In this document: one piece after another, positions 37,752-50,183 of the stretch
How positions within the stretch are numbered: the first letter of the stretch is position 1
Layout: each line of letters starts with the position of its first letter
Origin: Methanosarcinaceae archaeon
GTDB taxonomy: Archaea; Halobacteriota; Methanosarcinia; Methanosarcinales; Methanosarcinaceae
Assembly (NCBI GenBank): GCA_020055655.1
Contig: JAIPUR010000004.1
Location: 62,001-126,000, forward strand
Length of the DNA stretch: 64,000 bases
Direction of reading: 5' to 3'
Position numbers and translations under genes: made by a program
The notes under the pieces: generated by a model
The model's database searches: none
What the model was told of the DNA's origin: nothing
Seen by the model: the letters and a program-made list of their open reading frames with translations, nothing else

Positions 37752-38360
37752 TTATTCATCAACGTACAATAAATACAGACAGCTATTTTCTCTCATCTCC
37801 ATGAATCCCTGGGTTTCTGAAATTCCTGCTTTGTCAAGCAATACTTTCTTCCATGATTCAGGTGGGAGTGCAATTTGTCCTGTATGTGCTTTAGCACCAA
37901 TCTGTGCATATTGTAAAGGCTTGCCACCAACCTTTATTCTCTTTGCAACTTCCTTTCTGTATGTCTGGTGCATCATACATGCACTATGAGCTGCTGACGG
38001 CTGAATAGTGTGGTTGTAGTGATCTGTAGCTTCCATGTGTACAGGGTTGAAATTTCCGATACGTTTGATGTACTCGCGTATAGCTTTTGAGAATGGACAG
38101 TTCTTTGTCACAAAACCAAACTTGCTGATTTGTTCTATATTCTCAAAAGATGAAAATACAGATTCTCCACTTGCAACTGCACTTGCAAAGTCATCCCATG
38201 TTTCATACTCTTCAGAGGGAACTGATTTTGCAAGAGATTCTGCCTGACCTACCATATAATTGGTAAACCCTTCAACACCCTGTTTATCAGATATATCTTC
38301 AAAGAAAAGGAAAACTGACACATCAACAAAAGGATTTGATTCAATATTTTTCTGGCTCAT
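37752..38360 (-). CDS. unknown protein, paralogue of the upstream gene (CP / CxxHQ motifs)
   Basis: A 202-residue soluble protein that I do not recognise. It aligns by eye along its length with the next gene upstream. Shared features include TKNCPFSKAIREYIKRIG, a DHYNH segment, SAAHSACMMHQTYRKEVA, TGQIALPPESW and a C-terminal cysteine (NSCLYLLYV). The conserved CP and CxxHQ could bind a metal or cofactor (inference). I chose ATG 38360 because AAGGTGATC lies just before it; an earlier in-frame TTG is unlikely. It is second in a two-gene operon, ten bases after its paralogue. Confidence 0.8.
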   Translation of the reverse strand: MSQKNIESNPFVDVSVFLFFEDISDKQGVEGFTNYMVGQAESLAKSVPSEEYETWDDFASAVASGESVFSSFENIEQISKFGFVTKNCPFSKAIREYIKRIGNFNPVHMEATDHYNHTIQPSAAHSACMMHQTYRKEVAKRIKVGGKPLQYAQIGAKAHTGQIALPPESWKKVLLDKAGISETQGFMEMRENSCLYLLYVDE

Positions 38361-38370
38361 ATGATCACCT

Positions 38371-38997
38371 TCATTCAATTATTTCCTCTCCAGCAGTTTT
38401 TCCTTTTATAATAATGGCAAAAACACAGGATGCACTTCTTAGTATGCTTTTAATATGACGTTCGTCAACATTTATACGCTCAAGGCTCTCAGGTACCATC
38501 TTGACCTCACCGGTCATACCTTTATTAGCAAGCTGAAGGCATTCAAGGGCTTGCTTTGCAACTGTAATGTTATTAGCTGCAACTTCCCTGAATTTCTGGT
38601 GTGTAATACAATAATTTGATACCGCAGAATCTCTTACGCGGTTATTGTAACTGTCAGCAACATCGGTATCGGAATCAGGTATTGGTCCAATTCGTAATAT
38701 GTATCTCCCCATTGTAGGTGCCATTGGGCAGGTCTTCAGTGCATATACATATCCAATAACATCTCCATCCCTGTCAGTAATAGCAAGATCTGTTAATACA
38801 TTCACCTGTCCTTCAACGGTAAGGGATGTTCTACCTTCTTTCATTGCTACATTAAAAGCGGGCCAACCGACGTATGCTTCTTTTCCCATTCTTTCGGCGT
38901 AGCTTTCCCCTACACGGAGCCAGTATTCTACAACACCTTCCGTTCCTGCCTTGCTGACCATATCATCAACAAGTGAGTATATTGCAATATCCATCAT
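38371..38997 (-). CDS. unknown protein, paralogue of the downstream gene (CP / CxxHQ motifs)
   Basis: A 208-residue soluble protein with no named domain that I can recognise. It shares with its downstream neighbour the pattern LKTCPMAPTMGRYILRIG, a DSYNN segment, RDSAVSNYCITHQKFREVA, TGEVKMVPES and a late cysteine (SASCVFAIII). The tandem pair probably arose by duplication and may form a heterodimer (inference). AGGAGAA lies upstream of two adjacent ATG codons. An AT-rich 118-bp gap with TATA-like sequences separates it from the chemotaxis region. Confidence 0.8.
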   Translation of the reverse strand: MMDIAIYSLVDDMVSKAGTEGVVEYWLRVGESYAERMGKEAYVGWPAFNVAMKEGRTSLTVEGQVNVLTDLAITDRDGDVIGYVYALKTCPMAPTMGRYILRIGPIPDSDTDVADSYNNRVRDSAVSNYCITHQKFREVAANNITVAKQALECLQLANKGMTGEVKMVPESLERINVDERHIKSILRSASCVFAIIIKGKTAGEEIIE

Positions 38998-39655: not shown

Positions 39656-40279
39656 TCAGGAGAACATTTGCATAATTGAATCCTGTATATCTGACAGTGA
39701 ATCAGGTGTAAGGAGCAGAAACATGTCTCCATAAATTGTGTCGAGTCCACTTGTAGCACCTGCTCCATGGACCATGAACATTGTTTCAATATTCAACAAA
39801 TCATTTATAGCTGAACCTGAAACATGTGCCGTATTTTCCAATATTTTCAAAATAGATCCTACAATTACATTTGGTGGGGACAGGTGTACCTCAAGCCCGA
39901 GGAATGAATGAACGGAACTCATATACGAACCCGCAAGAATATTACCAAGCTCCGAAAGTGCTGATTCGTGCATGTCAGGGTCACTTATTGTTTGGCTTCC
40001 GTGCAACAATAGGCTGCTAAGTGAAGTGGCATTGTTGAATTCAAATAGTAATAGTGCAACACCTTCGAGTCCACCTTCCATTTTCTGCATAACACCAATC
40101 ATGGTTATTGACTCGGGTATTGATTGTGCAATGTGTCTTGGATCAAGTAATCTTGCATCTGTCAGATTCAAACGGACATCTTTATGGATCAATTCTGAAA
40201 GGGAAGTTGTTGCATTTCCCATTCCAATGCTTCCAATTTCTTTTAAGGCATCAACTTCAAAGCTGCTTAAAGGTTCCAT
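39656..40279 (-). CDS. cheC: CheC-family phosphatase (copy C)
   Basis: A 207-residue CheC-type protein with the usual two half-sites. The first, DALKEIGSIGMGNATTSL, has serine where the catalytic asparagine is expected. The second, SALSELGNILAGSYMSSV, keeps S-x3-E-x2-N and a downstream PP. CheC proteins remove phosphate from CheY and in archaea also bind CheD. Only the second site looks competent here. It starts two bases after the end of the DUF835-like gene and is the last recognised che gene. Confidence 0.9.
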   Translation of the reverse strand: MEPLSSFEVDALKEIGSIGMGNATTSLSELIHKDVRLNLTDARLLDPRHIAQSIPESITMIGVMQKMEGGLEGVALLLFEFNNATSLSSLLLHGSQTISDPDMHESALSELGNILAGSYMSSVHSFLGLEVHLSPPNVIVGSILKILENTAHVSGSAINDLLNIETMFMVHGAGATSGLDTIYGDMFLLLTPDSLSDIQDSIMQMFS

Positions 40280-41551: not shown

Positions 41552-42025
41552 TTAATACCGTTTCTCGCCTTTCTGTGCACTCTTAACAGTAAGCTGACCT
41601 GTTTCAGTGTCTAGAATAATCGTTCGTCCGTAGGTATCTCCCGTATCATCAGCAATTGTTTTTATTCTAAGTTTATCTAGTACTTCTTTGGTTGCAGCCA
41701 AATTTCGCTCGCCAATGTTCAAATTGCTGTTAGAGCTAAAAGAGAACATTCGTGCACCACCTGCTATTTTTGCAGTAAGGTGGTGTTTAGCAGCTCCTTG
41801 TTTTACCATTGAATCCACAAGGTCAGGAATGCCAGTGTCTGCAAATTTTGCACGATTGTCTTTTGCTCTTGCATTTTCAACACTCGGCAACATTATATGC
41901 ACCATTCCTCCAATGCAGTTTCTATTATCGTATAGGGAAATTCCTATACATGAACCCAAACCCAAGGTTGTAAGCTTTTCAGGTTTTTTTGCCACTGCAC
42001 TGTCAGCCATTCCTACAATGATCAT
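41552..42025 (-). CDS. cheD: CheD, receptor glutamine deamidase
   Basis: A 157-residue CheD with the catalytic cysteine in TTLGLGSCIGISLYD, the histidine in GGMVHIMLPS, and KIAGGARMF with the family GGA motif. It deamidates receptor glutamines and is controlled by binding CheC. I chose ATG 42025 (MIIVGMADSAV), not the upstream TTG, because the frame-corrected half-cheC ends four bases before it at 42030. No strong ribosome binding site is visible, which fits translational coupling. Confidence 0.92.
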   Translation of the reverse strand: MIIVGMADSAVAKKPEKLTTLGLGSCIGISLYDNRNCIGGMVHIMLPSVENARAKDNRAKFADTGIPDLVDSMVKQGAAKHHLTAKIAGGARMFSFSSNSNLNIGERNLAATKEVLDKLRIKTIADDTGDTYGRTIILDTETGQLTVKSAQKGEKRY

Positions 42026-42029
42026 GGTA

Positions 42030-42340
42030 TCATGTTCGCATATTTTCAATTTTATCAAGCAGAACTTTCATTGATCTCGAATCGAGAATCATATACATGT
42101 CACCATTAATGCTTCGATTTCAAATAACGTATTCAGGCCAAAAACATGTTCCATTTTTCTTTTTAAACTCTTGTTGCATTTTTCCATCAGATCACTGGAA
42201 TGGCCTTCTGACATTGTTGGGGTCGATGGAATAATATTCAGGTTCAAGAATTTAGAAAGCGCATTGTAATAGGCATCTGCAAGAATATTTCCAACCTCAT
42301 CAAGCGCATCATAGTAGAATTTGTCAAGTTTTATATTCAT
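42030..42340 (-). pseudogene. cheC: half-length cheC with a frameshift
   Basis: The frame from ATG 42340 reads as the C-terminal half of CheC only: YYDALDEVGNILADAYYNAL with an intact D-x3-E-x2-N and following P, then VFGLNTLFEIEAL near 42110, and stops early at 42089. Adding one base near 42104 continues GDMYMILDSRSMKVLLDKI to a TGA at 42030-42032, exactly the C-terminus expected of CheC, and it ends four bases before cheD. So the gene has lost one base or the assembly has an error. Uncorrected, the product is 83 residues; corrected it is about 101. Confidence 0.75.
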
Positions 42341-42355
42341 GATAATTCCCCGTGT

Positions 42356-42970
42356 TTACGTCATCTCATCGATCCTTCCCAGTAACTTGTCCATTCCCAT
42401 TGGATCAAATAAAGTAAGGAGTATTCCTTCCATTTGTTTTCCTTCCAGAACAAAAACGGTGTCAAAAAAGAGAGTGCATTCTACATTTTGGCTCATTTCA
42501 ATAAGGATCTGGTCCATGATGGCTCCAAGCATATCAAAAGTTTGCATCGGAGGTGATATTTTCACGTCTAGTGTTAAGAATTCAGCTAAAGAACTAATGT
42601 AAGATCCTGCAAGTATATGTCCGATCTCTTCCAGCATAGATTGGTTCATGGGAGTATGTATGTCTGTATCTTCCTCTTCATTGATGGCTTTGCAAATAGT
42701 TGCAGCACTATCTTCTGAAAGTAACATCATAATGTATCCATTAATGTCTCCATCAACGTGCATTATCACACCAGATACTACTTTATCAGCACCACCTGCA
42801 GCCTCAGGAACTTTTTCTATTATCTCAACCCTGAGTTCCGGGATATCGATCGATATCTGGTGTTTGATCATTTTAGATAGAGATGTAGCAGCATTACCTA
42901 CTCCGATATTGATAATTTCTTTTAGGGCACTGTTTTGCATATCTGTTAATTCTCTTACTTTGTACCTCAT
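42356..42970 (-). CDS. cheC: CheC-family phosphatase (copy B)
   Basis: A 204-residue CheC-type protein. The first site, SALKEIINIGVGNAATSL, keeps S-x3-E-x2-N and the downstream P in IDIPEL. The second, SMLEEIGHILAGSYISSL, has histidine in place of asparagine. The C-terminus, MDKLLGRIDEM, matches the frame-restored end of the half-cheC next to it. It lies 55 bp after cheR and 15 bp before the half-cheC. Confidence 0.92.
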   Translation of the reverse strand: MRYKVRELTDMQNSALKEIINIGVGNAATSLSKMIKHQISIDIPELRVEIIEKVPEAAGGADKVVSGVIMHVDGDINGYIMMLLSEDSAATICKAINEEEDTDIHTPMNQSMLEEIGHILAGSYISSLAEFLTLDVKISPPMQTFDMLGAIMDQILIEMSQNVECTLFFDTVFVLEGKQMEGILLTLFDPMGMDKLLGRIDEMT

Positions 42971-43025: not shown

Positions 43026-43850
43026 TTATTTGGAGTATATCCTTTCCTTGGCATTGTATGGTGCAAAAAGATCCTTAGCTGGCCCTATCAATGTCTCTGT
43101 TTTACCCATGATAAAAAATCCATCATTGTTCAGACCATCATAAAATGCATTGTAGAGCATTTCCTGTAAATCCTTTTCAAAATAGATGGTGACATTTCTA
43201 CAGAAAATAATGTCAAAACCTTTCATTTTTGGTCCGGATATCATGTCGTGGGATTTGAAACGTGTCATCTTTTTCAGTTCATCAATGACATGATATTCGT
43301 TCCCCTCTTTGACAAAATATTTTTTTAAAAAAGCAGGCTTAACGTCTTTGACTTCTGCTGCAGTGTAAACGCCTTTTTCAGCTTTTAAAAGGCTGGCTTT
43401 ATCAATATCTGTGCCAGTTATATTAATTGTATAATTTTTGAAATTCCTTCCAAGAAGATGCTGCATGAGCATGGCAATAGAATAAGCTTCTACGCCTATC
43501 GAGCACCCTGCACTCCAGATCTTTATATTTTTCATTCTGGAACTGTCTTTAGACTTAATAACTGATGGAATTACTTCTTTTCCAACAACATCATATACTT
43601 CGCCATTTCTGAAAAAATTTGTTACATTTACAGTCAGGGCCTCAAGAAGCATTGGATACTCATCCCGATCATTTTTAAGAATATCTAGGTACTCTTTATA
43701 TGACTTTGATCTTGTAGCTCTGAGTCTGACATCAATTCTCCTTTTGAAGTGTGAATCTTTATAGTACTCACAGTTAAAGTTGAGTTTCGTTTTGATCTGA
43801 CTTTTCAGGAGATTATAATCTTTATCTTCGCTGGCTGCATTTTTGAGCAT
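43026..43850 (-). CDS. cheR: CheR, chemotaxis protein methyltransferase
   Basis: A 274-residue CheR. It has an N-terminal helical domain with RIDVRLRATRSKSYKEYL, the S-adenosylmethionine loop IWSAGCSIGVEAYSIAML (the usual GEEPYS is GVEAYS here) and FDIIFCRNVTIYFEKD. It methylates glutamates of chemoreceptors. ATG 43850 is used because GAGGTG lies five bases upstream; the GTG two codons earlier overlaps the binding site. It starts at the very end of the FtsA-like gene. Confidence 0.95.
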   Translation of the reverse strand: MLKNAASEDKDYNLLKSQIKTKLNFNCEYYKDSHFKRRIDVRLRATRSKSYKEYLDILKNDRDEYPMLLEALTVNVTNFFRNGEVYDVVGKEVIPSVIKSKDSSRMKNIKIWSAGCSIGVEAYSIAMLMQHLLGRNFKNYTINITGTDIDKASLLKAEKGVYTAAEVKDVKPAFLKKYFVKEGNEYHVIDELKKMTRFKSHDMISGPKMKGFDIIFCRNVTIYFEKDLQEMLYNAFYDGLNNDGFFIMGKTETLIGPAKDLFAPYNAKERIYSK

Positions 43851-43852
43851 GT

Positions 43853-45973
43853 TCACACCTCAATAAATTTGATCGTAACTTTGTTTCCATTTTTTAATGG
43901 TGTTGTAAAACGTGCTGGAATATCATTGACTAATAGCCTGATGTTTTTTCCGACAAGTTCTTCTCTATTAATATTCATGAATTCGAACAGGTCTGAAAGT
44001 ATAGGATTGATCTCAGCTCCACTTTTTACAGTTACATTGTCGCCGTCAAACAAGCTATCTGAAAGACCTGATTTATGCCCATTGATCAAAATGACCTTTT
44101 CAGTGTCTGGAAAAACTACATTCTGTCCGTTCAGGATAACACTGAATTGGCGACTGTCTATTGGTTTATCAATGATCTCTTCCAATGTCCATTCCTTATC
44201 TTTCGTTTCAATATTGATATGGTCAGCATCTTTGACAATTAATTTAGACCATTCTTCAGGAATGACTTTGTCGCCATTTAAATATACAGAGTACTCAACT
44301 CTGTCAAATGTATGAAGTTGATTATTGATTGTAATATTTATTTTGTCTGCAGATCTTCTGCTTTTCAGATCATTCAGAACATCTAACAGTGAGGCCGGAT
44401 TGATAATAACTGAACTTCTATCTGGAACATTTATATCGGAGCTTGCCTTTTTTCCATTAAGCATTACAGATGGGAACTGTTTGATTATCTCACCGTTTAG
44501 AATTATTTCAGTTTCAGGCTTGATCCCCTGTTTTAATATGAGTTCACTTACAGTCAAGCTGGCATCCTTACCATTAACAGGTACATTGAATTCTATTGCA
44601 GAACCGTTTGTTATGGTATCTCCAAGTGCGGCTTTTTCCCCATTTAGGAATACACTTGCGTGCTCTCCAAATTCTCCTTCAATGGTCATAAATTTTGAAT
44701 TGACATTAAGGGAAATAGCCATTCCAGGTCGGGAATATATATGTTCGATACGAGCAGCAACAAGTGCATCCATAATGGAAAGTCCATTAATATCAAGAAG
44801 ATGAACTACAGTATCATTTACAGTCACTTCTGCAAATTCGATACCTGTATTCTGGACTGCTGTCAAAGCAATCCCAAGAGGTGTAATCATCTCGGGACCA
44901 GTTACTTTTTCTGTGTGGTCATCAAGTCCATCTAACATGTCTGGCAATCTTGAACCTACACGCTGCACAGGTATGTCGAGATGTTTTGCAAGATGTTCTT
45001 TAAGTGATGCGGTTTGTGACCCTCCTCCTACAAGAACAACTGCACGAGGGGCACTTCCATTAATATCAATAATCTGTTTTGCAATATGGCTGCTTAACTT
45101 ATTGATCTCTTCAGCAATAACAGAGATTATCTCAGATGTATCAACTTCAGAAACTACAGAAAAAATATCTTGTATTTCCAATTTGTCAGATGAAGACAAC
45201 TTTTGTTTTATATCCTCTCCTTTATTAAAGTCCACTAAATAATGGTCGCAAATAAAATCAGTAATTTCATCTCCTGCTTCTGGAACCATGCCATATCCAA
45301 CAACTGTTCCATTATTGGTTATTGCAATATCAGATGTGCCTGCTCCAATATCAACTAGCGCAAGATTGAGTTTACGCATATTGTGTGGGATGGCAATATT
45401 TAGTGCGGCTATGGGTTCCAATGTTACACTGGATGCTTCGAGTCTACATTTTTCAAGAACAGCAAACATGCTACTCACAACTGAATCTGGCAAAAAGGTC
45501 GCAAGTAGTTCCACAGTCGCAGAACTTCCGGTATGTCCTGATATATTGGACATCTTTTCCCCGTCAAGTTCATAGCTTGTTATGGAATAGCCTACACAAT
45601 TAAATCTTTCATTTTTTGAGAATTGACTACTGGCTTTAGTAATAGCCTCAAATTCAAGTTCTTTGAGGTCCTTATCATTTATTTTTTTGTAAGGGATCTC
45701 AACGGAAACTTTAGATTTTACAGTTTTAAGAGCACGGCCTGCAACTGCAACTGAGGCTTTTGTTAGCTTGTATCCAGTCTCTTGTTCAAGTGCTTTTTTT
45801 ACTTTTAGAACGACCTCTGCAACCTTATCAACATCATGTACCTGTCCATCATGCATGCTTCGCTCCTGATGTTCACATACATGTATTGATTTGATTTCCA
45901 GAGGCTCTCCTTCTACGATGAGCCCAACAACAGTTCTGGTTCCAATATCCAGAGCAAAATGGGCTTCTGTCAT
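43853..45973 (-). CDS. FtsA-like actin-fold ATPase with a C-terminal repeat tail
   Basis: A 706-residue protein. Residues 1-380 have the FtsA/PilM/MreB nucleotide-binding motifs: phosphate-1 ALDIGTRTV (7-15), phosphate-2 VDIGAGTSDIAI (207-218) and adenosine motif VLVGGGSQT (313-321), plus VAVAGRALKTV (75-85) in the position of the FtsA-specific subdomain. Residues about 380-706 contain repeated VxLNG units (441, 490, 503, 563, 612, 628). From memory it resembles the roughly 700-residue FtsA-domain proteins of Clostridia rather than archaeal actins. No membrane helix or clear amphipathic C-terminal tag is seen. It lies in the che operon between cheC and cheR with one-base and two-base spacing. 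Function unknown; a scaffold for receptor or motor arrays is a guess. Confidence 0.85.
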   Translation of the reverse strand: MTEAHFALDIGTRTVVGLIVEGEPLEIKSIHVCEHQERSMHDGQVHDVDKVAEVVLKVKKALEQETGYKLTKASVAVAGRALKTVKSKVSVEIPYKKINDKDLKELEFEAITKASSQFSKNERFNCVGYSITSYELDGEKMSNISGHTGSSATVELLATFLPDSVVSSMFAVLEKCRLEASSVTLEPIAALNIAIPHNMRKLNLALVDIGAGTSDIAITNNGTVVGYGMVPEAGDEITDFICDHYLVDFNKGEDIKQKLSSSDKLEIQDIFSVVSEVDTSEIISVIAEEINKLSSHIAKQIIDINGSAPRAVVLVGGGSQTASLKEHLAKHLDIPVQRVGSRLPDMLDGLDDHTEKVTGPEMITPLGIALTAVQNTGIEFAEVTVNDTVVHLLDINGLSIMDALVAARIEHIYSRPGMAISLNVNSKFMTIEGEFGEHASVFLNGEKAALGDTITNGSAIEFNVPVNGKDASLTVSELILKQGIKPETEIILNGEIIKQFPSVMLNGKKASSDINVPDRSSVIINPASLLDVLNDLKSRRSADKINITINNQLHTFDRVEYSVYLNGDKVIPEEWSKLIVKDADHINIETKDKEWTLEEIIDKPIDSRQFSVILNGQNVVFPDTEKVILINGHKSGLSDSLFDGDNVTVKSGAEINPILSDLFEFMNINREELVGKNIRLLVNDIPARFTTPLKNGNKVTIKFIEV

Positions 45974-45974
45974 A

Positions 45975-46589
45975 TTATCCCATCATCTTTTTCATAATGG
46001 CTGCCATTATCACATCGCTAGATCCAGGTTCAAAAAGCATATTGAATTCATTCTTTGAATTTGTAGATGGAATTTTAGCTTCACCTTTGACTACGATGAA
46101 ATCATCTGCCATTTCACCAATTTCTGTCTCGATGAACTCTGAAACTCCTTCCATATTCACTTCTATAGATGGATCTCCCACTTTGAGGGTGATACCTAGG
46201 AAATCATTGACCACACGCATATAGGCGCTACAGAGGTTAACCCCCATTTCACGAAGTTTTCTTATTTGTAGTTCTTCTATTTTTGCTGTAGTTCCAATGG
46301 GTTTTTTCATCAGAAGATCGGAAAATGATAGTGCAGAGAATTTTGGAAGTAGAACAAGAGTTCCTCCACTAACATCACCTGATAATTTAAGATGTATTCC
46401 AACGACACTTTTATTTTTTCCATCAGATGCCCGAGTTATTATCTCTTCCAGTGATAGCATTTCAACTGTAGGGATATCTATCTTGACATCTCTATTCACC
46501 ATTTTTGATAGTGAAGTTGCCAAGTGTCCCATGCCTATGTTTCCAGCTTCCTGAAATGCGCCTCTTGTCATTTCATCCATTTCAGCCAT
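45975..46589 (-). CDS. cheC: CheC-family protein (copy A)
   Basis: A 204-residue CheC-type protein. The first site is GAFQEAGNIGMGHLATSLSKM with glycine where D or S is usual but with E, N and IDIPT kept. The second, RKLREMGVNLCSAYMRVV, lacks the asparagine. Its phosphatase activity is therefore doubtful. It lies between cheA (30 bp) and the FtsA-like gene (one base), which could suggest that it serves as an adaptor rather than a phosphatase (inference). Confidence 0.88.
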   Translation of the reverse strand: MAEMDEMTRGAFQEAGNIGMGHLATSLSKMVNRDVKIDIPTVEMLSLEEIITRASDGKNKSVVGIHLKLSGDVSGGTLVLLPKFSALSFSDLLMKKPIGTTAKIEELQIRKLREMGVNLCSAYMRVVNDFLGITLKVGDPSIEVNMEGVSEFIETEIGEMADDFIVVKGEAKIPSTNSKNEFNMLFEPGSSDVIMAAIMKKMMG

Positions 46590-48721: not shown

Positions 48722-49825
48722 TCATTTCAGCATATGTAGGATCTCGGCAGATATTTTTTCAAGCACTACTACGCTATCGGATAGCTTGCGCTTTTCAACT
48801 GCCTTAGGCATACCATAGACCACACATGAGCTTTCAGCTTCGGTAATTGCTTTACCGGCCACTTTCTTAATCTCTTCAACTCCATCAGCACCGTCAGCAC
48901 CCATTCCAGTAAGCACTACTGCCAGGATATTTTTGCCGTAAATGTCCACTAATGAGTTGAAAAGGACATTTGCGCAGGGTCTCACCCCCTGTTCGCGTGG
49001 TTTCTGATTTAAGGCGACGACTTCACTAACTTTATCACCTATTGTTCTCTGGACTATTTCCATGTGATAATTTCCAGGAGCCAAATACACTATGCCGTTG
49101 TGTAGTACATCTCCTTCCTCTGCCTCTTTAACTGTCAATTCTGACTGATTGTCAAGTCTTTGAGCTAATGATGCCGTAAATCCTGCCGGCATATGTTGCA
49201 CGATAACTACTGGAGCTTTTAAATCTCCAGGAAGCTTCGGAATAATTTGCTCCAGTGCTCTTGGTCCTCCAGTGGAAGAAGCAATCGCCAATATTCTCTT
49301 GTTTCCAAAATATCGGTTAGCAACATTGGTTTTAGGTTTAGGGATAGAAGGTGTGTTTTTTACTTTATTTTCAGTTCGTTCTCTGGTATTTTTGACATGC
49401 TCTTCCATAAATTTGAGTTTCTTAACATCTACTTTTGACGCGGTTTTAACTTTTGTTCTAATATCATTGGCCATATCTGAAATATTCTGGCTAATATTGC
49501 CTGAAGGTTTATGGATAAAGTCCACTGCACCATATTCAAAAGCATTCAACGTTGTTTCAGCAGACTTAGGATCAACTGCTGTAAGCATTACTACCGGAGT
49601 TGGGCATTCACTCATAATATATCCTAAAGCATGCAACCCATCTAATTTCGGCATTTCAACATCAAGGGTGACCACATCTGGTTGAAGTCTTTCTACTTTT
49701 TCTAAAGCATCAAGCCCATTTCTTGCTGTTGCAACTACAGTTATCTCCTCATCTTCATTGAGAATGTCTGAGATCACTTTGCGCATTAATGCAGAGTCAT
49801 CTACCACAAGAACTTTTTTAGTCAT
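48722..49825 (-). CDS. cheB: CheB, receptor methylesterase/response regulator
   Basis: A 367-residue CheB. The receiver domain has VVDDSALMR and the phosphoacceptor Asp55 in VVTLDVEMPKLDG. The linker, about 125-175, is basic. The esterase domain has the catalytic serine in IASSTGGPRAL, histidine in VIVQHMPAGFT and aspartate in GMGADGADG. It removes methyl groups from receptors or deamidates glutamines. It starts one base after the cheY stop. Confidence 0.96.
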   Translation of the reverse strand: MTKKVLVVDDSALMRKVISDILNEDEEITVVATARNGLDALEKVERLQPDVVTLDVEMPKLDGLHALGYIMSECPTPVVMLTAVDPKSAETTLNAFEYGAVDFIHKPSGNISQNISDMANDIRTKVKTASKVDVKKLKFMEEHVKNTRERTENKVKNTPSIPKPKTNVANRYFGNKRILAIASSTGGPRALEQIIPKLPGDLKAPVVIVQHMPAGFTASLAQRLDNQSELTVKEAEEGDVLHNGIVYLAPGNYHMEIVQRTIGDKVSEVVALNQKPREQGVRPCANVLFNSLVDIYGKNILAVVLTGMGADGADGVEEIKKVAGKAITEAESSCVVYGMPKAVEKRKLSDSVVVLEKISAEILHMLK

Positions 49826-49826
49826 A

Positions 49827-50183
49827 TTACATTACTTTTCCAATTACTTCCAGCACCTTTGCAGCATCAAAAGGCTTCACAATGAAGTCTAATGCTCCAC
49901 TTTTAATTGCATCAGTAACTACTGATTGCTGTCCTATGGATGAACACATTACTACCTTTGCTTCAGGATCGATCTCCATTATTTTCTTGAGAGCATCAAT
50001 ACCTTCCATGTTTGGCATGACAATGTCCATAAATACTAATTCAGGGTTTACCTGTGGGTATTTTTGTACAGCATCGAGTCCGTCAACACATTCAGCTACA
50101 ACTTCGTGACCATTTTTGCTCAAGATATCCTTGATGACCATGCGCATAAATGCGGCATCGTCCACAATCATAATTCTTGCCAT
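49827..50183 (-). CDS. cheY: CheY, chemotaxis response regulator
   Basis: A 118-residue receiver domain with the acidic pair Asp8-Asp9, the phosphoacceptor Asp53 in VFMDIVMPNMEG, Ser81 in the Thr position, and Lys103 in FIVKPFD. It carries the CheA signal to the motor, normally through CheF in archaea, although no cheF is in the window. It is first in the che operon, preceded by a 276-bp AT-rich region with a perfect palindrome. Confidence 0.95.
   Translation of the reverse strand: MARIMIVDDAAFMRMVIKDILSKNGHEVVAECVDGLDAVQKYPQVNPELVFMDIVMPNMEGIDALKKIMEIDPEAKVVMCSSIGQQSVVTDAIKSGALDFIVKPFDAAKVLEVIGKVM

Follow-up and report, generated by a model that had tools for sequence, protein, structure and literature searches.

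A chemotaxis (che) operon of a Methanosarcinaceae archaeon was found to carry a gene whose product joins an actin-fold domain of the FtsA/PilM type to a tail of beta-grasp domains. Because the CheA-CheC-actin trio to which it belongs is also found in a bacterial phylum, this protein probably takes part in chemotaxis as a component not described before. Its gene lies in a window of 64,000 nucleotides (contig JAIPUR010000004.1, positions 62,001 to 126,000), which is the whole stretch of DNA analyzed here. Its sequence relationships place it in an undescribed bacterial family of actin-like proteins, as a branch that was acquired by lateral transfer and is dedicated to che operons. On balance, we consider it somewhat probable that the protein is a che-dedicated member of an actin-fold ATPase family, acquired from bacteria, that acts in the chemosensory complex as its scaffold or as an adaptor. 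To our knowledge, no actin-family protein has been established as a component of a chemosensory system, and no report linking such an actin-like protein to chemotaxis was found among the open-access papers searched. Whereas the fold is a known one, neither the architecture nor the association with chemotaxis appears to have been described. Conserved in both archaea and bacteria, the CheA-CheC-actin trio offers a concrete candidate for a chemotaxis scaffold or regulator powered by ATP, and this candidate sits in an archaeal genus with a single CheA system.

The actin-like gene and its operon

In the direction of transcription, the operon reads cheY-cheB-cheA-cheC(a)-actin-like gene-cheR-cheC(b)-cheD-DUF3795 protein-cheC(c) (Table 1). 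Most of the che genes were identified by Pfam and NCBIfam, and cheY and cheB by translation together with their conserved order in relatives. The earlier note on this DNA had described a 706-residue protein with three actin-fold nucleotide motifs and gave no strand; both the protein and its motifs were recovered on the minus strand, and the opposite (plus-strand) reading of the same interval contains many stop codons. Its ORF matches the Pfam profiles FtsA (42.3 bits, cut-off 31.8), PilM_2 (37.5, cut-off 27), and MreB_Mbl (33.8, cut-off 27). Moreover, the 23 full-length orthologues in other Methanolobus genomes are 56-61% identical to it and free of internal stops, and their nucleotide motifs vary little or not at all. 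These scores, orthologues, and motifs indicate a real gene rather than a chance ORF. Many independent genomes, several of which are assembled as a single contig, contain intact copies, and an assembly artefact was thereby ruled out. An Rfam search of the region gave no matches.

The coordinates agree with the one-base gap to cheC and the overlap with cheR claimed in the earlier note: a single base separates the cheC stop (45975) from the ATG of the actin-like ORF (45973), and four bases are shared with cheR. Among 24 loci from other Methanolobus genomes, including a copy with an internal deletion in G017, the distance from cheC to the ORF is one base, up to an ATG, in 19 loci and two bases in one; in the remaining four, a distance of 4-5 bases to a GTG was scored, and an ATG one base past the cheC stop is present there as well. 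The distance to cheR is 0-3 bases in the same loci, save one in which cheR is cut at the contig end. As both spacing and order are conserved through the genus, the previously proposed cotranscription is supported, and the actin-like gene is likely cotranscribed and translationally coupled with cheC and cheR.

Of the 27 Methanolobus genomes, 26 encode a single CheA each; the remaining one (G011) has neither CheA nor the actin-like gene. Archaellins, many of them, are encoded in all 27 genomes. Thus, this operon represents the sole CheA system of the genus, presumably steering the archaella. The CheC encoded directly upstream of the actin-like gene keeps the first catalytic E..N site and has the Asn of the second site replaced (EMGV). 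Every archaeal copy examined has lost this Asn, even where the genome lacks the actin-like gene.

Two further features of the cluster were observed. In most Methanolobus genomes, cheC(b) and cheD are separated by an additional CheC gene, which is missing from the window (42059-42355), G017, and G020. At the end of the cluster (window 37752-38997), two 208-aa proteins are encoded in tandem, neither of which matches a Pfam profile significantly; their conservation across the genus is 85-95%, compared to about 66-75% for CheA.

Table 1. Che genes of the window and features of the actin-like protein, in the direction of transcription
Feature	Position in window	Strand	Basis
CheY	49827..50183	(-)	translation; conserved order
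CheB	48722..49825	(-)	translation (receiver + methylesterase); same order in relatives
CheA histidine kinase, sole CheA found in genome	46620..48659	(-)	profile match
CheC (a), directly upstream of actin-like ORF	45975..46589	(-)	Pfam, NCBIfam
Che-linked FtsA/PilM-type actin-like protein, 706 aa	43853..45973	(-)	ORF with ATG start
Actin (ASKHA) ATPase domain, FtsA/PilM type, residues 1-375	44849..45973	(-)	NCBIfam ftsA; AlphaFold model
Phosphate-1 motif ALDIGTRTV, residues 7-15	45929..45955	(-)	invariant in 24 members
Family signature EHxxRxMxDGQxHD, residues 34-47	45833..45874	(-)	family alignment
Phosphate-2 motif VDIGAGTSDIAI, residues 207-218	45320..45355	(-)	conserved family-wide
Adenosine motif VLVGGGSQT, residues 313-321	45011..45037	(-)	G316-G318 universal
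GSRLP, residues 340-344	44942..44956	(-)	alignment
Tandem beta-grasp (ubiquitin/ThiS-like) domains, about five repeats, residues 376-706	43856..44848	(-)	Pfam ThiS; AlphaFold model
CheR methyltransferase, 4-base ORF overlap	43026..43856	(-)	Pfam
CheC (b)	42356..42970	(-)	Pfam, NCBIfam
CheD	41552..42058	(-)	Pfam, NCBIfam
CheC (c)	39656..40279	(-)	Pfam, NCBIfam

Domain architecture and relation to known actin-like proteins

An AlphaFold model built from 24 orthologues has a mean pLDDT of 81, and a Foldseek search with this model placed the FtsA crystal structures 7q6i and 7q6d on top, followed by PilM, EutJ, and MreB, with Hsp70 also among the matches below FtsA and PilM. The C-terminal 334 residues (373-706), modeled separately from 51 relatives, form a chain of beta-grasp domains with a pLDDT of 87; the best solved matches of this tail are the bacterial multi-ubiquitin proteins 9cd2 and 9d5a, and ThiS and SAMP1 fit single domains. 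Across the family, 67 alignment columns are conserved, the nucleotide motifs among them. D9, G11, T12, and R13 of the phosphate-1 motif are universal, and E34, H35, R38, M40, G43, and H46 of the signature are conserved in archaeal, Thermotogota, Bacillota, and che-linked bacterial members. G340, R342, and P344 are common to the archaeal and bacterial che-linked members and are not found in other members of the family.

Among curated models, that of FtsA scores best for both the window protein and its relatives, and it is matched over nearly its full length (residues 7-368 to model positions 4-368). The likeness to this bacterial cell-division actin (7q6i, 7q6d, 1e4f) covers the actin fold of residues 1-375 and the nucleotide motifs, with a TM score of about 0.70 by target length for the top Foldseek matches. 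However, the equivalog cut-off of NCBIfam FtsA (TIGR01174) was not reached either by the window protein (112.2 vs 175.85 bits) or by its bacterial relatives (82-110 bits). The window protein is also nearly twice as long as FtsA, and its gene lies in a che operon rather than in a division cluster. The term FtsA-like used in the earlier note thus holds as a fold label, backed by Pfam, NCBIfam, and the fold search, and fails as a statement of FtsA membership. The suggestion that the protein might organize membrane attachment of the chemosensory array was not supported: the C-terminal amphipathic helix by which FtsA binds the membrane is absent from the models and is replaced by the beta-grasp tail, the chain ending in a beta-strand of a beta-grasp domain.

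PilM, the actin-like adaptor of type IV pili (2ych, 5eou), has the same fold; Pfam PilM_2 is matched above its cut-off, and the Anoxybacillus relative of the window protein carries a PilM annotation. However, the NCBIfam pilM model (TIGR01175) gave 67.9 bits against a cut-off of 133, the tail is an addition to the PilM fold, and neither pilN nor pilO was found beside the gene in the window, its neighbors being che genes. Similarly, NCBIfam mreB (TIGR00904) gave 23.7 against 365.75, although Pfam MreB_Mbl was passed. By the NCBIfam cut-offs, the protein qualifies as neither FtsA nor PilM in the strict sense.

Two archaeal actin-fold proteins were also considered. The available text of a survey describes an FtsA-like homologue of Methanopyri as the sole archaeal FtsA homologue, considers a bacterial origin likely, and reports no link to chemotaxis (PMC8178401); the likeness to the window protein is drawn here from this description. 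Volactin, a haloarchaeal actin (PF25216) described as a cell-shape determinant (PMC10869688), shows a weak profile match to the Thermotogota relative, and its profile gave no match to the window protein at the threshold applied.

Distribution and origin of the family

Intact orthologues, one per genome, are present in 24 of the 27 Methanolobus genomes, including that of the window. In the window and in all 23 intact loci of the other genomes, the gene lies between cheC and cheR. Across the class (238 genomes), the only further carrier is G115, from another genus of Methanosarcinaceae, whose copy (L141) is 49% identical and occupies the same operon position. The che operon of G020 lacks the gene. 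Empty sites, in which cheC is followed directly by cheR, were seen in G020, G030, and G031, including the corresponding operon of two other genera (L068 and L069). In still other relatives, this cheC is missing too. In G017 (L031:6770-7417), residues 1-103 and about 600-706 are joined in frame into a protein of 216 aa and residues 104-599 are deleted, which represents a natural internal deletion or possibly an assembly error. A concatenated CheA, CheB, and CheR tree nests G020 inside the genus, so the absence of the gene there reflects loss. The actin-like gene is dispensable, given that G020, G017 with its deletion (if not an assembly error), and the two other genera keep the operon without it. 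The CheA/CheB/CheR branch of G020 (L067) has a length of 0.35, compared to about 0.11 in its nearest relatives, as if change had been faster after the loss.

In bacteria, the family occurs in several contexts. One phylum (G403 and its relatives) has the gene in 23 of 45 genomes. The order CheA-CheC-actin-like gene was found at all 21 readable loci, often within a full che operon; the other two loci are cut by contig ends, leaving the upstream side unreadable. In five of the 21, the gene overlaps cheC by four bases. The outcome that the earlier note named as refuting, homologues never located beside che genes, thus did not arise. These proteins are the closest relatives found outside archaea, with about 32-37% identity, the same position behind CheA-CheC, and placement in the same clade. 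They differ in being followed by dprA-topA-xerC or other genes, compared to cheR in Methanolobus, and the partner CheC of the one bacterial copy checked (L145) keeps both active sites, unlike the archaeal CheC(a). The window protein displays the sequence and gene-order traits of this che-linked family: about 700 aa, an actin domain with a beta-grasp tail, the signature, and a location directly behind cheA-cheC. One sub-clade of the phylum retains the CheA-CheC-actin trio without the usual che neighbors. In two of its members (e.g. L181:9247-17809), the trio is located behind a secretin (pilQ-like)-aroC-aroK block, a placement hinting at pilus-linked signaling.

Thermotogota and Bacillota also encode long FtsA/PilM-like homologues, similar over their full length (about 700 aa, the two-part architecture, and EHxxRxMxDGQxH). 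In Thermotogota, homologues, mostly full length, are present in 79 of 103 genomes; a MutS2-like gene lies upstream at 17 of 20 loci and acpS often downstream, and che genes were found beside none of the 20. The two Bacillota cases, a thin sample drawn from a plasmid collection, come from Acetoanaerobium (33.6%) and Anoxybacillus (37.3%) and adjoin other genes, none of them che genes. The Thermotogota and Bacillota members also mostly lack the 13 residues specific to the che-linked clade. The non-che contexts suggest that the ancestral role of the family was something other, or more general, than chemotaxis. In a further bacterium, G386 (L146:7221-9311), a family member is encoded inside a flagellar cluster, flgG-flgA-flgH-flgI-HDOD-actin-like-flgN-flgK-flgL-fliW.

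In the protein tree, a 99/98 branch separates the archaeal and che-linked bacterial proteins from those of Thermotogota, Bacillota, and the flagellar cluster. The 13 che-clade columns compare with 2 and 6 in two control comparisons. A grouping of archaeal with Thermotogota proteins was rejected (AU p = 0.013, for a hypothesis framed after the tree was seen). Thermotogota, the first outside match and widely endowed with the gene, was compatible as donor with an earlier tree lacking the che-linked bacteria; it was discarded on account of this rejection and of its loci, none of which adjoins che genes. Acquisition from Clostridia, as proposed in the earlier note, was not borne out: long Bacillota homologues do exist, but the two seen in this thin sampling have no che neighbors and fall on the opposite side of the split. 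Horizontal transfer from bacteria as such is supported by the tree and by the distribution, which is wide in bacteria and narrow in archaea; this contrast points to a direction from bacteria to archaea. Transfer of the whole CheA-CheC-actin block is not supported by the trees of its partners: archaeal CheC(a) is not placed with the bacterial partner CheC, and CheA separates by domain.

Proposed role and competing explanations

FtsA and PilM act as adaptors. Together with the coupling to CheA-CheC across two domains and the conserved nucleotide motifs, this makes an ATP-switched scaffold the most likely role. In the proposed scenario, a bacterium would have passed the gene to a common ancestor of Methanolobus and a second, related genus, and the gene would then have been retained between cheC and cheR of the sole chemotaxis operon. 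Within the chemosensory complex, the protein would serve as scaffold or adaptor: its actin domain would bind ATP and self-associate or switch with the nucleotide, the beta-grasp arms and the actin surface would hold CheC at the CheA-receptor array, and CheY-P turnover would thereby be held at the array, through CheC. ATP binding and assembly, the partnership with CheC/CheA, and the scaffold role are all predictions from sequence. A bolder version, in which a core nucleotide-switched array component with a poly-ubiquitin-like tail is common to the bacterial phylum and the archaeal genus and constitutes a cytoskeletal element in chemotaxis signaling, is put forward tentatively.

The strongest alternative is a localization factor, that is, actin-like positioning of the chemosensory array, or of array and archaellum, rather than CheC signaling. 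Such a role would suit the actin fold, the many archaellins throughout the genus, and the G386 member between flgI-HDOD and flgN-flgK. However, it appears unlikely, because the immediate neighbor is CheC and no receptor or polar-organizer gene, the membrane helix is absent, and FlhA was not matched in some carriers of the bacterial phylum, whose genomes are incomplete. A second alternative is that the protein is an ASKHA chaperone or reactivase in the style of EutJ or diol-dehydratase reactivase (DDR), using ATP to remodel CheC, CheD, or CheR instead of forming a structural scaffold. The EutJ and DDR profiles do match the actin domain, and EutJ and Hsp70 appear in the fold search; yet FtsA leads both that search and the curated models, and the tail is unlike the Hsp70 substrate-binding domain, which leaves this explanation rather improbable. 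A cell-division FtsA placed in the che operon by chance is rejected as very improbable: although FtsA is the best-scoring known family, its cut-off is not reached, its membrane helix is absent, and the gene is always in the che operon and missing from most relatives, which must divide.

Equally hard to credit is a role in signal output, with the actin-like protein substituting for CheF, through which archaeal CheY-P acts (PMC9126983), in passing the signal on to the archaellum motor. CheF (PF04283) was detected above cut-off in only four of the 27 Methanolobus genomes, and there only as fragments, which counts in favor of such a role. However, the bacterial carriers have no archaellum, and relatives without the actin-like gene retain the operon. 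This explanation was set aside given a short CheF-like protein encoded near archaellins (L195:3389-3976), which matches CheF weakly and in part (18 bits). Both this protein and another short one near archaellins (L198:7018-7608) have a weak wHTH match, and the latter lies beside genes of the histone-deacetylase family.
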